Below are positions 19,254 through 37,283 of a stretch of DNA of 38,982 nucleotides, in pieces (the first letter of the stretch is position 1; each line of letters opens with the position of its first letter). Under the pieces are notes generated by a model. That model did not search any database and was not told the origin of the DNA. It was given only the letters and a program-made list of their open reading frames with translations. The translations under genes and the position numbers were made by a program. The stretch comes from Deltaproteobacteria bacterium (GTDB lineage Bacteria > Myxococcota_A > Polyangia > HGW-17 > SLPX01). Location of the stretch: positions 1 through 38,982 of the forward strand of contig JAGGXR010000075.1 in assembly GCA_021162935.1 (NCBI GenBank), in the 5' to 3' direction.

Positions 19254-19691
19254 CTTCGTCCTCCTTGTTCTGACATTATCCTGTTCGTTCACACCATCCC
19301 GAAGGAAAGGCCAACGCATCGCTGGACGACGGTCGGTCTCCAAATTCCCAACGTCGGCAGCAGGGTGCGCGAGATGCCCACAGTGCCCCTCTTCTCAACG
19401 GTCAAATGGCAAATTCCACGGCCCCCTTTTGACCCTACAATCCTACGATGCCCGAGACGGACCCCGACGGTTTGCAATCTTTTCTTCAATTTCTATTTCG
19501 AACGCAACCTCCAATCTGTTTTTATCGCTTAGATGCACAAACCCGGTCAAGAAAAAAATCAGCATGGGAGCGTTGCCAGGAAAACCGTTTCATCGTACAA
19601 CGCGCTTCTGGCCATGCACCTCGTTGGAGGGGCCCCGTTCAGGCATACATGGCGTGAGCCGCTTCAGCGTCACGCCCAGGCAGGAGTCGAC
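19254..19691. other. Divergent intergenic region upstream of the shell-protein gene (438 bp)
   Basis: Separates the repeat lipoprotein (minus) and the BMC gene (plus). The part at about 19480-19560 is clearly richer in A+T than its surroundings. A candidate promoter for the plus gene is listed separately. GATAAT on the minus strand (about 19284-19289) could be a -10 for the lipoprotein, but no good -35 accompanies it. No gene of recognisable family is seen here. Confidence 0.5.
19573..19601 (+). promoter_or_regulatory. Candidate promoter of the BMC shell gene
   Basis: TTGCCA (19573-19578) and TACAAC (19596-19601) with a 17-base spacer, five of six and four of six matches to sigma70 consensus. 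It lies about 90 bases before the start at 19692. Confidence 0.45.
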
Positions 19692-20093
19692 ATGCGATCG
19701 ATTGGTCTCATCGAAACAAAAGGGTTCGTGGGCCTCGTCGAGGCCGCCAATGCCATGGCCCATGTGGCTGAGGTGGAACTCGTCCATTACGAAAAAATCG
19801 GGGACGGCATGGTCACCATCGTGGTCCGCGGGCCCCTTGAGGAGGTCCGTCGCGCGGTACGCACCGGCGTGGCCGCGGCGCAGCGGGTCGGAGAACTAGT
19901 TTCCGCCCATGTCCTGCCGCGCATCCATCCCAAGGCGGACAGGCTCCTTCCCCTCGGGGGAACCAGATTCGCCATCGATCCTCCGGACGGAACTCCATCG
20001 AAACGCAGTGAAGAGGAACCAACCTCGAATCGTCCACTCCATCAGGGGCCCGACGGCCAATCGAACGAGACGGCATCCGGTTCAAACATCTAG
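19692..20093 (+). CDS. Bacterial microcompartment shell protein (BMC-H, PduA-like) with C-terminal extension
   Basis: Residues 1-88 form one BMC domain: GLIETKGFVGLVEAANAM, then YEKIGDGMVTIVVRG, then GELVSAHVLPRIHP. Such proteins form hexamers that tile the shell of protein organelles. Compared with PduA, the pore-loop Ser (KIGSG) is Asp38 (KIGDG), and the conserved inter-hexamer edge Lys of the AMVKSANV region is His24, while the Arg of PRxH (Arg77) is kept. Residues 89-133 are a polar, probably disordered tail not found in minimal BMC-H proteins. AGGAG precedes the ATG by six bases; the frame is open further upstream but without homology. No other shell or cargo gene lies nearby, so the role is unclear. 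Confidence 0.93.
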   Translation: MRSIGLIETKGFVGLVEAANAMAHVAEVELVHYEKIGDGMVTIVVRGPLEEVRRAVRTGVAAAQRVGELVSAHVLPRIHPKADRLLPLGGTRFAIDPPDGTPSKRSEEEPTSNRPLHQGPDGQSNETASGSNI

Positions 20094-32549: not shown

Positions 32550-32804
32550 TCACCAGGACAGGACCAGTCGGATCCGATCGTCGTCCTCGATCCTTTCCAT
32601 CGCCAACTCCTCGGCCAGGACACCGAACAGGACCAGTGCCTCTTCGAGTCTGGACAGCGGCACCTCCCACACCACCACGTTGCTGCCAGGTCGAGACGTC
32701 TGAGTGGCCAGGCCTTCGTACCCTTCCAAGACGTTCCTGACGTAATGAATCTCCGATTGCGGCAATCGAAACGCCAGCAATCTCGTTCTGCCTGCGTCCG
32801 TCAA
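32550..32804 (-). CDS. DUF4911-like small protein
   Basis: 84 residues from TTG at 32804, overlapping the TGA of the preceding fusion gene as TTGA; a GGAG lies four bases upstream. The sequence RLLAFRLPQSEIHYVRNVLEGYEGLATQTSR, then VVVWEVPLSRLEEALVLFGVLAEEL, follows the strand-helix-strand-helix pattern of DUF4911, in which an NVLEGY-type motif is typical. The family has no known function that I can state. No in-frame ATG or GTG gives a sensible start, so the TTG and coupling to the upstream gene are plausible. It is the last gene of the MBL-MBL-fusion unit. Confidence 0.6.
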   Translation of the reverse strand: MTDAGRTRLLAFRLPQSEIHYVRNVLEGYEGLATQTSRPGSNVVVWEVPLSRLEEALVLFGVLAEELAMERIEDDDRIRLVLSW

Positions 32805-35116
32805 GGTCTCCGACTCTGAATGGCATCGATGTATCCGACGGCACCGGCGGACATTTCGGCGGCATTGGCTTCGTCCGTGTCCACGTGCATCTCCAGCCGA
32901 AACGTCGGCTTGACGCGAATCAGGACGTCTCCAAAAATGAGTTCCCGCTCTCCAGGCACGCGCACCCGCACCATGTCCCGGTCGCGCACCGCCAATCTCA
33001 GTGCGTCCGCCGGACTCACATGCACGTGTCTGAGGGCACAAATAACACCTTCGGACAGCTCGACACGGCCGGCAGGCCCCTCCAAAATGAGCCCCGGCGA
33101 ACCGGCCAAGTCTCCTGATGCCCGAATGGGCGCATCGATGCCGAGCTTGAACTCTTCGGTCCTGGCAATCTCGACCTGGGTCTGCTTGCGCTCAGGCCCC
33201 AGCACCCGCACCCGTTCGATACGAGCTTTGGGGCCGATCAACGTCACCGACTCCTTACAGGCGAACTGACCCGGCTGATACAGGTCCTTGACGGGCGTCA
33301 GACGATGTCCCTCCCCGAAAAGAATCTCGACATGGTCGGACTGGAGATGCACGTGGTGTGCCGAGATACCAATGGGGATAGGAATCTCCTCAGGATGGAC
33401 CGCCTCGGTCAATCGGCTCCGACGCAACGCAGCCACGGTCTCACGCGCGATCATGCCCTCTTCGTCCGTGGGCACCACGAGCACATGGACCGGAGCGCCC
33501 TCCACCGCAATGTTCGCCGCAGAGCCGGCGGCTGGCGCCGCCCCGTGATTCCGCTCCTCGTCCACCTGGATACCGAAGACATCCAACCCCTGACAGACCC
33601 GGGACCGAATCCACGAACTGTGCTCCCCGATGCCGCCGGTGAACACGAGTGCGTCCAACCCACCCAGAGCAGCCACGTAGGACCCAATGTACTTCTTGAT
33701 CCGGTAGCAAAAAACCTCGACCGCCAGGATCGACCTCGGGTCTCCGTCCTCGGCGGCGTCGACCACCTCTCTCATGTCGTTCGATCGGCCGGACAGGCCG
33801 AGCAGCCCGCTCTTGCGATTCAGCAGGTCGTCCACATCATCGGGCGCCATCCCCAGAGACGTGGTCAGATGCAGCACCAACCCGGGATCCACATCTCCAG
33901 ACCGAGTGCCCATCAGAAGGCCTTCGAGCGGGGTCAGGCCCATACTCGTATCGATGACGCGCCCGTGATCCACGGCGGTCACCGATGCGCCATTGCCCAA
34001 ATGACAGGTGATCATCCGCAGCGAACGAGACGACTTCTCCAAAAAAGATGCCGCCTTGAGGGACACGTACTTGTGAGACGTGCCATGAAATCCGTAGCGC
34101 CTCAGGCGATGCTTCTCATACAGTTCATAGGGAATCCCGTAAACGAACGCGCGCTTGGGCATGGTCTGATGGAAGGCCGTGTCGAACACGGCCACCTGGG
34201 GCACCGATGGCAAGAGCTTCTCGCAGATCTCGATTCCGGTCAGGTTCACCGGATTGTGCAGAGGCGCCAGGACGGAACAGGATCGGATCTCGTCCTTGAC
34301 CGCATCATCGATCACCACGGGTTCACTATACCGATCGCCGCCATGGACGACGCGATGTCCGATTCCGGTCAATTCATCCAGAGAATGCAACACGCCCGTA
34401 TCCGGGGCAACCAACGCATCGAGGACAATCTTCAAGGCGGCGGCATGGTCCGGTGCTGCGACCACATCCACGTCCTCACCTGTGCTGCGCCAGGATCGAT
34501 GTTTCTGTTCGGACTCGCCAATCCGCTCCAAGACGCCCCGAAACACGGCATCTGGCCGAGAAGAATCGACAAAATCGTACTTGAGTGAGGAACTGCCCAA
34601 ATTGAGCACAAGGATGCGGTATTCGGCCACCAGGGAACGAGGCCGCATAGACCTGGTCTTTCTCGTACTCCGCCTCGCCCTCTCCACCGCGTCCTGTTCC
34701 GCCTCGTCGTTTTCACGACGGCTCAGTCGTTCGGTGAGAGTACGAGCGAGTTCCTGGATTGCCTCGGGATTCCTGGCGAGTTCCAGCGAAAAGGTCTCTT
34801 GCGGAATCAAGAGCACCCTGCTCGCTCCGGCCGACTGAACGTTCGCACTCGTAGGTTCGCCCGTCAGCAGGCTCATCTCCCCAAAATACTCACCGGCCCC
34901 CAAGGTGGCCAACACCTCGCCGGCCGGCTCACCAGAAACGACCTCGGCCCGGCCCTCCAGGATCACGCCCAAAATCTCGCCCTGACGGCCATAGGGAACG
35001 ACCACGTCTCCATCGGAAAAATCCTTGACCGTGCTATGCTCAATGATCCGATGGAGTGAATCGGGCCGCAACCGACGAAACAGGCTGATCCCCCTTACGA
35101 ATTCCGAAACATCCAT
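32801..35116 (-). CDS. CAP-ED sensor - acetate kinase - PduL phosphotransacylase triple fusion
   Basis: 771 residues. Residues about 10-130 form a cyclic-nucleotide-binding-type (CAP-ED) domain, with FGEMSLLTGEP at 78-88; the residue at the canonical phosphate-binding Arg is Thr89. After a charged linker, 166-570 is a full acetate kinase: NLGSSSLKY (172-180), HRVVHGG (254-260), FDTAFHQTMP with catalytic Asp312, YGFHGTSH (341-348), GTRSGDVDPG (403-412) and TGGIGEHS. Residues 578-768 are a full PduL-type phosphotransacylase with metal ligands in HHVH (587-590), RHVHV (696-700) and His744 of EMHVDTDEANA. One chain could turn acyl-CoA plus phosphate and ADP into carboxylate and ATP, or reverse. 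No microcompartment-targeting peptide is evident. GGAGG lies six bases before the ATG. Confidence 0.96.
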   Translation of the reverse strand: MDVSEFVRGISLFRRLRPDSLHRIIEHSTVKDFSDGDVVVPYGRQGEILGVILEGRAEVVSGEPAGEVLATLGAGEYFGEMSLLTGEPTSANVQSAGASRVLLIPQETFSLELARNPEAIQELARTLTERLSRRENDEAEQDAVERARRSTRKTRSMRPRSLVAEYRILVLNLGSSSLKYDFVDSSRPDAVFRGVLERIGESEQKHRSWRSTGEDVDVVAAPDHAAALKIVLDALVAPDTGVLHSLDELTGIGHRVVHGGDRYSEPVVIDDAVKDEIRSCSVLAPLHNPVNLTGIEICEKLLPSVPQVAVFDTAFHQTMPKRAFVYGIPYELYEKHRLRRYGFHGTSHKYVSLKAASFLEKSSRSLRMITCHLGNGASVTAVDHGRVIDTSMGLTPLEGLLMGTRSGDVDPGLVLHLTTSLGMAPDDVDDLLNRKSGLLGLSGRSNDMREVVDAAEDGDPRSILAVEVFCYRIKKYIGSYVAALGGLDALVFTGGIGEHSSWIRSRVCQGLDVFGIQVDEERNHGAAPAAGSAANIAVEGAPVHVLVVPTDEEGMIARETVAALRRSRLTEAVHPEEIPIPIGISAHHVHLQSDHVEILFGEGHRLTPVKDLYQPGQFACKESVTLIGPKARIERVRVLGPERKQTQVEIARTEEFKLGIDAPIRASGDLAGSPGLILEGPAGRVELSEGVICALRHVHVSPADALRLAVRDRDMVRVRVPGERELIFGDVLIRVKPTFRLEMHVDTDEANAAEMSAGAVGYIDAIQSRRP

Positions 35117-35137
35117 AGGCCACCTCCGCAGGAAAAA

Positions 35138-36004
35138 TCAAAGGTCCATGACCAACCCGTCTCGGGCCACAACGATCTTCAATCCATGATCCCCGGCTTC
35201 CTGTTGTGCTTCGAGCCCCATCCGATCCAGTTCATGATCATCGTGGTCCGGCTTGTGGTGAAACAGCGCCACCTTACGGACTTTGGCGCGCAAAGCAAGG
35301 CGTACCGCATCGATGTGGCTGCTGTGGCCCCATCCGATGTGTCTCGCCAACTGCTCCGGTCGGTACTGGGCGTCCATGATCCACAGGTCCGCTCCACGTG
35401 CCAATTCGACCAACTTCTCGTCGATGGCTTCGTCCCCGATTTCGTGATCCGTGCTGTAGACGATGCTCCGATCACCATATTGGAGACGAATCGAGAGGGC
35501 TCCGCCAGGATGGCGGTTATCCGCCACGCTCACTTCGAATCCATCGACCGTTTCACCGGTCGGGTCCAACTTGCGATACTCGAGTTCCGCAGCAAGATGC
35601 TCCGTCCCTTTGATGGGTGAATAGACCGACGTGAAAAGTCGTTCGATACTGGATTGCACCCGTTGGTCACAGGCTCCGTAAAACGAGACCTTGTTTCCGG
35701 GGATGAACAAAGGAGTAAAGAACGGAAGGCCAATCAAGTGGTCCCAGTGAAAATGCGTCAACATGACATGAGCATGGCCCTTGCCGCGACCCAGGAGTCC
35801 ACGCATCAGGACCGACTGGAGCAGAGCCAGGCCAGTCCCGCCATCCAGGACAACCTGGGGATTATCGGGGTGTGCCCCTGCCCCAGGCTCATGGCTGTCG
35901 TATCCCACCACGTGCACGCAGGCCGTGTTTCCTCCGTAACGGGCCGTTGCGCGGCCGGGCGAGGCCACCGACCCACGGCATCCCCAAAACCGCACCCGAA
36001 TCAT
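35138..36004 (-). CDS. MBL-fold metallo-hydrolase (second of a tandem pair)
   Basis: 288 residues. N-terminal FWGCRGS and YGGNT, then HFHWDH (the HxHxDH metal motif), a later STDHE and LFHHKPDHDDHE, are features of the COG1235-like MBL hydrolases whose members include phosphodiesterases. Two metal ions are expected. The substrate is unknown; a role in degrading a phosphodiester or cyclic-nucleotide-like signal is possible given the following gene, but is inference only. The ATG at 36004 overlaps the TGA of the upstream paralogue (ATGA), which decides the start. It ends 21 bases before the fusion gene. Confidence 0.9.
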   Translation of the reverse strand: MIRVRFWGCRGSVASPGRATARYGGNTACVHVVGYDSHEPGAGAHPDNPQVVLDGGTGLALLQSVLMRGLLGRGKGHAHVMLTHFHWDHLIGLPFFTPLFIPGNKVSFYGACDQRVQSSIERLFTSVYSPIKGTEHLAAELEYRKLDPTGETVDGFEVSVADNRHPGGALSIRLQYGDRSIVYSTDHEIGDEAIDEKLVELARGADLWIMDAQYRPEQLARHIGWGHSSHIDAVRLALRAKVRKVALFHHKPDHDDHELDRMGLEAQQEAGDHGLKIVVARDGLVMDL

Positions 36005-36969
36005 AACGCCCCCTTTTGGCCACCGTCCGCACCCCAATCGACCACGTCCGCCTGCCACTCGCCCGATTGGGGCCGACGAGACCGCCCCAATTCCATAGTC
36101 ATACCTTCACAAGCAGCCTCGACACTCACACCATCCGCCAGGTCCCTCGCCATGGCCAACTTCTCATCCACCACGGCATCCGAATGTTCCGGGGCATGGT
36201 GAAACAAAACCAACGTGCCCACATCAGCCAGATGAGCCATCTCCAAAGCATCTTCGAACGTGGAGTGACCCCAATGGTACCGGCCCACGATCTCGTGCTC
36301 CAAAAAATGGCTGTCGTGCACCAACACGTTGCTGCCCCTCGCGCAATGGGCGAGCCGACTCTTGAACTCTTTACTGAATCCGTCGTCCGGATCCGGCCCA
36401 CCCATCCCATCTCCCAAGCGAGCCTTCGTCACTCGGGCGGTATCGGTGAAAACCGTTGCCACGGCGCCGTCCGCCTCGATCCGGTATCCCACCGTAATGC
36501 CAGGATGGTTGAGTTGGACCGTCTCCACCTTGAAACCTCCAAGCGCCAGGTGTTGGCCCGGACGAAAGGTCAGATACTCCAAATCAGCGCTAAGGTCCTC
36601 GAAAGGAACCGGAAAGTGCATATCCTCGTGCTGGCCCGACAGGATCTCACGAATATGGGCATTGGTTTGGCCCGCAGAAACCACCACGAACCGATTTCCA
36701 GGACGATAGAAGGGGGCAAAAAACGGATACCCCAAAATATGGTCCCAATGCGTGTGTCCGACCAGAATATACGCCCGCCCCTGGCCGGACCCGAATTGCC
36801 GTGTCATCATCTCGTCGCCCAACAACCGAATCCCGGATCCGCCGTCCAGAATCAGGTCGTCTCCAGACGCCGTCTGAAAATGGATGCAGGTGGAGTTCCC
36901 CCCGTATCGAAGTTGGTCCCGTCGAGACAAAGGGTACGAACCCCTGGCCCCAAAGATGGTCATTTTCAT
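36001..36969 (-). CDS. MBL-fold metallo-hydrolase (first of a tandem pair)
   Basis: 322 residues. Motifs FGARGSYP, YGGNST, HTHWDH (HxHxDH), FTDTARV, VHDSHFLEHE and FHHAPEHSD parallel those of the next gene, so the two are probably paralogues from an old duplication. The C-terminus carries about 20 extra residues. The start at 36969 gives the motif-bearing N-terminus MKMTIFGARGS with GGTGA upstream; a GTG five codons earlier is the alternative. It is the first gene of a four-gene unit (MBL, MBL, CAP-ED/AckA/PduL, DUF4911-like) with overlaps or short gaps throughout. The substrate is unknown. Confidence 0.9.
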   Translation of the reverse strand: MKMTIFGARGSYPLSRRDQLRYGGNSTCIHFQTASGDDLILDGGSGIRLLGDEMMTRQFGSGQGRAYILVGHTHWDHILGYPFFAPFYRPGNRFVVVSAGQTNAHIREILSGQHEDMHFPVPFEDLSADLEYLTFRPGQHLALGGFKVETVQLNHPGITVGYRIEADGAVATVFTDTARVTKARLGDGMGGPDPDDGFSKEFKSRLAHCARGSNVLVHDSHFLEHEIVGRYHWGHSTFEDALEMAHLADVGTLVLFHHAPEHSDAVVDEKLAMARDLADGVSVEAACEGMTMELGRSRRPQSGEWQADVVDWGADGGQKGAL

Positions 36970-37283
36970 CGCTTCACCACGCACGCGCCCAGGCCCTCAC
37001 CCCGAAGTCAACCCCAGTCGACCGATTCACACCCAAACTATTCGCCTCGAACATCAGGGACCCAATCTTTGTGAAAACTCCTCAATCGACCCGGTGATGC
37101 TGCCACAAAGCCGGGTTGTCCGTCAACGCACGTTTCTACTCCAATCGATTGGTCGAGTGAACTGGACGGCCTATCCACCCGGCGCCCCAGCAGCGATAGG
37201 ATCAGACATGGAGGAACACACACATCTATACCCTGACATGGCGACCAATCTCCCCCTTCATCCCGATGAAATTCACCCCTCGG
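36970..37283. other. Intergenic region between engB and the MBL operon (314 bp)
   Basis: Must hold the promoter of the minus-strand MBL operon. A perfect 12-bp palindrome CCAATCGATTGG is at 37141-37152, about 170 bases before the first gene. TTGACG and TTGACT on the minus strand lack a good -10. Short frames here look like chance, and no terminator after engB is clear. Confidence 0.45.

Follow-up and report, generated by a model that had tools for sequence, protein, structure and literature searches.

The window, by which we mean the whole 38,982-nucleotide stretch of DNA analysed here, contains an uninterrupted open reading frame with an ATG start that encodes a CAP-ED domain, an acetate kinase (AckA) and a PduL-type phosphotransacylase in a single chain (Table 1). 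The fused gene and the MBL-fold hydrolase gene immediately upstream probably form one transcription unit. The two overlapping MBL-fold genes at this position (35138–36984, reverse strand) are both RNase Z-like, and their co-transcription with the fusion is likewise probable. Comparison of gene neighbourhoods showed that the MBL-fold genes are not kept beside relatives of the fusion, and that no neighbouring gene is shared even with relatives at 67–68% identity; the operon partners thus gave no clue to a ligand. Elsewhere in the window (19533–20093, forward strand) lies a gene for a lone BMC shell-domain protein (PF00936, 1.7e-22) whose 186 aa include an N-terminal extension of 55 residues; no other BMC genes were recognized in the window.

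Table 1. Features of the fused gene, its surroundings and related loci of the same genome (window positions unless a contig is named)
Feature	Position	Strand	Remarks
Whole fused gene	32801..35116	−	771 aa; Pfam and NCBIfam matches
PduL-type phosphotransacylase domain	32846..33382	−	residues 579–757; PF06130, 5cuo alignment
AckA–PduL linker	33383..33436	−	residues 561–578; short, length near-constant in triple fusions
Acetate kinase domain	33437..34621	−	residues 166–560; PF00871, 1tuu alignment
CAP-ED–AckA linker	34622..34696	−	residues 141–165; variable
N-terminal CAP-ED (cyclic-nucleotide-binding-like)	34697..35104	−	residues 5–140; Pfam core 31–110
Phosphate-binding-cassette region of CAP-ED	34838..34885	−	residues 78–93, FGEMSLLTGEPTSANV; position 89 is Thr
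Shine-Dalgarno sequence GGAGGTG	35121..35127	−	just 5′ of the ATG of the fusion
MBL-fold hydrolase gene	35138..36058	−	PF12706, 2.2e-18; stop codon 21 bases upstream of the fusion start
Second MBL-fold hydrolase gene	36001..36984	−	PF12706, 2.7e-12; 58-base overlap with the first
Microcompartment locus (L120)	contig C129:35000-46988		BMC-H, tandem BMC, PduS-like protein, aldehyde dehydrogenase, PduL
Pta-like/butyrate kinase fusion	L219:331-2550, contig C108	−	740 aa; Pta-like 19–349, butyrate kinase 382–735
Butyrate-kinase-like/phosphate butyryltransferase fusion	L006:724-3159, contig C148	+	812 aa; 113–464 and 508–800

Domain architecture and active-site residues

The first-pass annotation had read three domains in one chain, and profile matches bore this out. 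All three domains scored above the Pfam gathering cut-offs: cNMP_binding at residues 31–110 (PF00027; 1e-14, 54.7 bits against a cut-off of 27.5), Acetate_kinase at 168–558 (PF00871; 5e-149, 496.7 bits) and PTAC, the PduL family, at 581–755 (PF06130; 4.7e-76, 254.9 bits). The NCBIfam models for ackA (TIGR00016; 488.6 bits, cut-off 293) and phosphate propanoyltransferase (NF011652; 260 bits, cut-off 209) also matched above their cut-offs. No helix–turn–helix family in Pfam, the mark of a Crp/Fnr transcription factor, was matched after the CAP-ED, which is followed by a linker and then the acetate kinase.

In order to probe the active site of the kinase, we aligned the AckA domain with the Methanosarcina thermophila enzyme (1tuu), in which N7, R91, H123, D148, H180, R241 and E384 are the important residues. 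Their counterparts N172, R255, H287, D312, H344, R405 and E552 are all present. In M. thermophila numbering, N7, R91, H123, D148 and H180 are invariant in all 47 aligned rows, and R241 and E384 are kept in 46 of them.

The PduL domain was compared with rPduL of Rhodopseudomonas palustris (5CUO/5CUP), a microcompartment-type enzyme of the same family that binds zinc through H48, H50, E109, H157, H159 and H204 and contacts phosphate through R103 (PMC4784909). The alignment of 5cuo to the window protein is ungapped, and the zinc ligands (H588, H590, E649, H697, H699 and H744) and the phosphate arginine (R643) are identical; the metal-binding histidines noted earlier are therefore conserved, together with E649 and R643. 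Unlike rPduL, the PduL of the fusion is joined to AckA, lies outside a microcompartment locus and lacks the N-terminal encapsulation extension of the stand-alone form. A distance of 13 kb, occupied by unrelated genes, separates the fusion from the closest BMC-domain gene, and the microcompartment PduL of this genome is a different gene, on contig C129, with an N-terminal extension of about 50 residues. We therefore rejected the fusion as a microcompartment enzyme. That PduL can work outside microcompartments, as the first-pass annotation had noted, has a precedent in Moorella, where it serves as the phosphotransacetylase with AckA (PMC5920165, PMC10823632); in these acetogens the two are separate genes and there is no regulatory domain, whereas here they share one chain with a CAP-ED.

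Mean pairwise identity across 36 triple fusions is 62% for PduL, 53% for AckA and 33% for the CAP-ED. PduL is thus the best conserved part, which argues that it is under constraint and not decaying. The spacing from E552 to H588 is 36–40 residues in 34 of the 36. The structure prediction proposed earlier was only partly informative: in the AlphaFold model AckA and much of PduL are confident but the CAP-ED is poor (pLDDT about 26–60), because the alignment drew on a restricted set of sequences.

Distribution and origin of the fusion

A search for the domain order and its distribution, as suggested in the first-pass annotation, showed that the triple fusion recurs. Counting matches that cover about residues 1–769 of the query with no internal stop, we found it in 22 of the 290 genomes of the class, the present one included, spread over six families; the others are 47–68% identical to the window protein. 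In a second phylum, reached through a locus titled Nitrospirae bacterium (L023), a fused protein occurs in 10 of 246 genomes, a count that includes one protein cut by a contig end, and several of these genomes have two copies. Altogether 35 other proteins have the same domain order with near-constant linkers, so that the three-part form represents a conserved variant.

The fusion of the two enzymes without the CAP-ED is commoner still, and joining them is not rare. Among the matches listed, 53 more genomes of the class encode AckA and PduL in a single open frame that lacks a CAP-ED. In a sample of the phylum, matches spanning both enzyme domains, most without a stop, come from 93 of 331 genomes (72 of 215 genera). 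Two-part fusions with the same order, in one frame, are also found on plasmids of Polaromonas (WP_011798166.1) and Paracoccus (WP_127899590.1), where RefSeq names them ‘acetate/propionate family kinase’; plasmid records gave only bipartite fusions, none covering 80% of the query. The earlier statement that AckA and phosphotransacylase are normally separate proteins must be qualified: Bacillota and others carry them as separate neighbouring genes (L008, L039, L066 and L074), but the AckA–PduL fusion is common in Myxococcota and present in proteobacteria. At the position of residue 587 the PduL motif reads SAHH in 33 of 38 CAP-ED-bearing proteins and SARH in most bipartite fusions.

The AckA tree unites the sampled two-part fusions (99/96), along with one long-branched stand-alone row, and joins a set of stand-alone kinases in another group (100/98). 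The triple fusions fall into three groups, two from Myxococcota and one from the second phylum, a topology that fits more than one sequence of gains and losses. L155 and L195 are apparent exceptions, but in both the gene reaches the end of its contig. In the tree of CAP-EDs the fused domains cluster together, separate from the other 12 that this genome encodes (88/69), a pattern that one acquisition of the domain could explain.

Recurrence also bears on whether the fusion is real. The genome is a draft assembly of 168 contigs, and a sequencing error, a misassembly joining genes or a dead domain might each have produced such a protein. Chance and a sequencing join are excluded by the uninterrupted frame and by the same full-length order in the 35 other proteins of two phyla, one of which sits on a 3.27-Mb contig, and every active-site residue checked is present. 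We therefore rejected an artefact of assembly or frameshift, whose probability we regard as negligible, and the objections of this kind anticipated in the first-pass annotation fall away.

Several variants were encountered in the survey. Two second-phylum paralogues depart from the full arrangement: L197 has a degenerate PduL that has lost its metal residues, and L198 is a CAP-ED–AckA protein of 575 aa with no PduL. They offer natural experiments on the role of the CAP-ED without PduL. In L158 (genome G263, contig C543) the triple fusion stands at the end of an open frame of 2594 aa, which is either a larger fusion or merely a long open frame in high-GC DNA.

The phosphate-binding cassette of the CAP-ED

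In CRP (R82) and PKA-R (R209) an arginine of the cassette grips the cyclic phosphate; compare the EPRSA/EPRTA segments of solved relatives. In the cassette of the window protein (FGEMSLLTGEPTSANV) this position, where cyclic-nucleotide binders have Arg, is occupied by Thr89, and the alignment showed that the arginine is absent from all 38 fused CAP-EDs of the two phyla. The fused domains nevertheless keep the FGE and TG motifs: the Gly-Glu pair of the cassette (G79 and E80) is invariant, and E80 and G86 are each found in 36 of 36 triple fusions. Asp occupies position 92 in 27 of the 36, where PKA-type domains have Thr. The cassette arginine is present in at least six of the genome's 12 other CAP-EDs. 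The lack of it is therefore not peculiar to the fusion in this genome, but its family-wide absence in the fusions is telling.

The first-pass annotation had put forward cAMP, cGMP, c-di-AMP and (p)ppGpp as candidate ligands. For cAMP and cGMP this idea is weakened, although the PF00027 match stands. A true cyclic-nucleotide sensor switching the enzyme would agree with the best solved relatives of the domain, which are cGMP- and cAMP-dependent kinases, with the genome's four hits to the class III cyclase family, and with the adjoining MBL-fold gene, which shows weak similarity to a cyclic-nucleotide phosphodiesterase family in NCBIfam (49 bits, cut-off 400). There is also a precedent in mycobacterial Pat (Rv0998, MSMEG_5458), an acetyltransferase regulated by cAMP through an N-terminal CAP-ED (PMC8556138). 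Functionally, Pat is the closest parallel to the proposed control, as a CAP-ED joined to an enzyme of acetate metabolism, but it binds cAMP and is a different enzyme, whereas the CAP-ED of the fusion lacks the arginine. The Ser/Thr position just after that of the arginine is moreover variable, and the MBL-fold genes, as noted above, are not retained beside close relatives. Because the arginine is missing from all fused CAP-EDs, another ligand or a structural role seems to us more probable than a canonical cyclic-nucleotide switch, and we consider cAMP or cGMP an improbable ligand.

It is conceivable, if unlikely, that the CAP-ED has a purely structural role, for example as a dimerization module without a ligand, while both enzymes work as proposed below. 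Its low conservation would fit, as would the fact that E80 and Asp92 are the only charged pocket residues conserved and the existence of bipartite AckA–PduL relatives that manage without it. However, both phyla have retained the domain, and with it a GE and TG core that never varies and an Ala-Asp signature peculiar to the family, and PduL by itself already oligomerizes (PMC4784909). On balance, the CAP-ED probably provides a regulatory input of some sort.

A proposed cytosolic enzyme of acetate metabolism

The fusion is the only full acetate kinase of the genome, whose remaining PF00871 hits belong to a butyrate kinase or form part of butyrate-kinase fusions. No canonical stand-alone Pta was found in the genome, where PTA_PTB is confined to Ptb-type proteins and the Pta-like portion of a butyrate kinase fusion. 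Since there is no other full acetate kinase, and the other PduL lies in a microcompartment locus, it seems likely that the fusion is the main, housekeeping acetate kinase/phosphotransacylase of the organism, working in the cytosol. The PduL domain would convert acetyl-CoA (or propionyl-CoA) and Pi to acyl phosphate, from which the AckA domain of the same chain would make ATP and acetate. Both steps would be reversible, with the net reaction acetyl-CoA + Pi + ADP → acetate + CoA + ATP, and the enzyme may serve either acetogenesis or acetate activation. Five POR-family proteins, as counted by hits in the genome, are possible sources of acetyl-CoA.

A bifunctional enzyme is very likely. As a whole, the reading we lean towards is that of a cytosolic bifunctional enzyme whose N-terminal CAP-ED acts as a regulatory module, most likely answering a small ligand other than a cyclic nucleotide and altering enzyme output; the copies L197 and L198 count against it, as they show that the full set of parts is not always required. 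An alternative that we hold to be quite possible, if somewhat doubtful, is that fusion merely fixes the stoichiometry of former operon neighbours, with acetyl phosphate equilibrating with the cell and no channelling. Separate genes are the likely ancestor, as the adjacent AckA and PduL genes of Bacillota and others suggest, and the two also lie near each other in Moorella humiferrea (PMC5920165). This alternative leaves the CAP-ED unexplained, however, and the near-constant AckA–PduL spacing is what fixed packing of the domains would give. Channelling of acyl phosphate between the two active sites is possible. The fuller proposal that acetyl phosphate passes from PduL to AckA within the assembly while the CAP-ED senses a non-cyclic-nucleotide ligand, making a protein-level switch common to two phyla, is more speculative and we rate it as rather unlikely.

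AckA, PduL and CAP-ED are all known families, and what appears new is the conserved three-domain architecture. No description of an AckA–PduL fusion, an AckA–Pta fusion or a CAP-ED on an acetate kinase was found in the open-access literature. As to whether the fusion is common or already characterized, the possibility raised at first reading, the two-part form is common in databases under a plain name, but the three-part form is described in no paper found and appears to be undescribed. In databases it is hidden behind an ordinary kinase name, and it recurs in two phyla. The enterobacterial long-form Pta also has an N-terminal regulatory part and resembles the fusion in concept, as a regulatory domain attached to an enzyme of the acetate branch; both its phosphotransacetylase family and its regulatory domain are unrelated to those of the fusion.

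The AckA–phosphotransacylase step determines overflow acetate and acetate-linked ATP, as well as the pool of acetyl phosphate, which can phosphorylate response regulators and acetylate proteins. If the reading we favour is correct, a single polypeptide with both steps and a sensor-like domain would gate the acetate branch directly, placing acetate-linked ATP synthesis under control at the protein level, and a one-chain enzyme might hold acetyl phosphate off the bulk pool. With a single gene, channelling, sensing and the directionality of acetate-linked ATP synthesis become directly testable. At L185, and in part at L195, the fusion is followed downstream by a series of response-regulator and histidine-kinase genes; this was seen in only one lineage of the second phylum, and we base no conclusion on it.

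Fusions of kinase and phosphotransacylase recur in this genome. Besides AckA–PduL there are two of other kinds: the Pta-like/butyrate kinase protein, whose kinase part scores above its cut-off (446.8 bits), and the butyrate-kinase-like/phosphate butyryltransferase protein, which has the opposite order with the kinase part first. The kinase part of the latter falls just under the cut-off, and its N-terminal phosphate motif is degenerate. A MYXO-CTERM protein, in keeping with Myxococcota, is also encoded in the genome.
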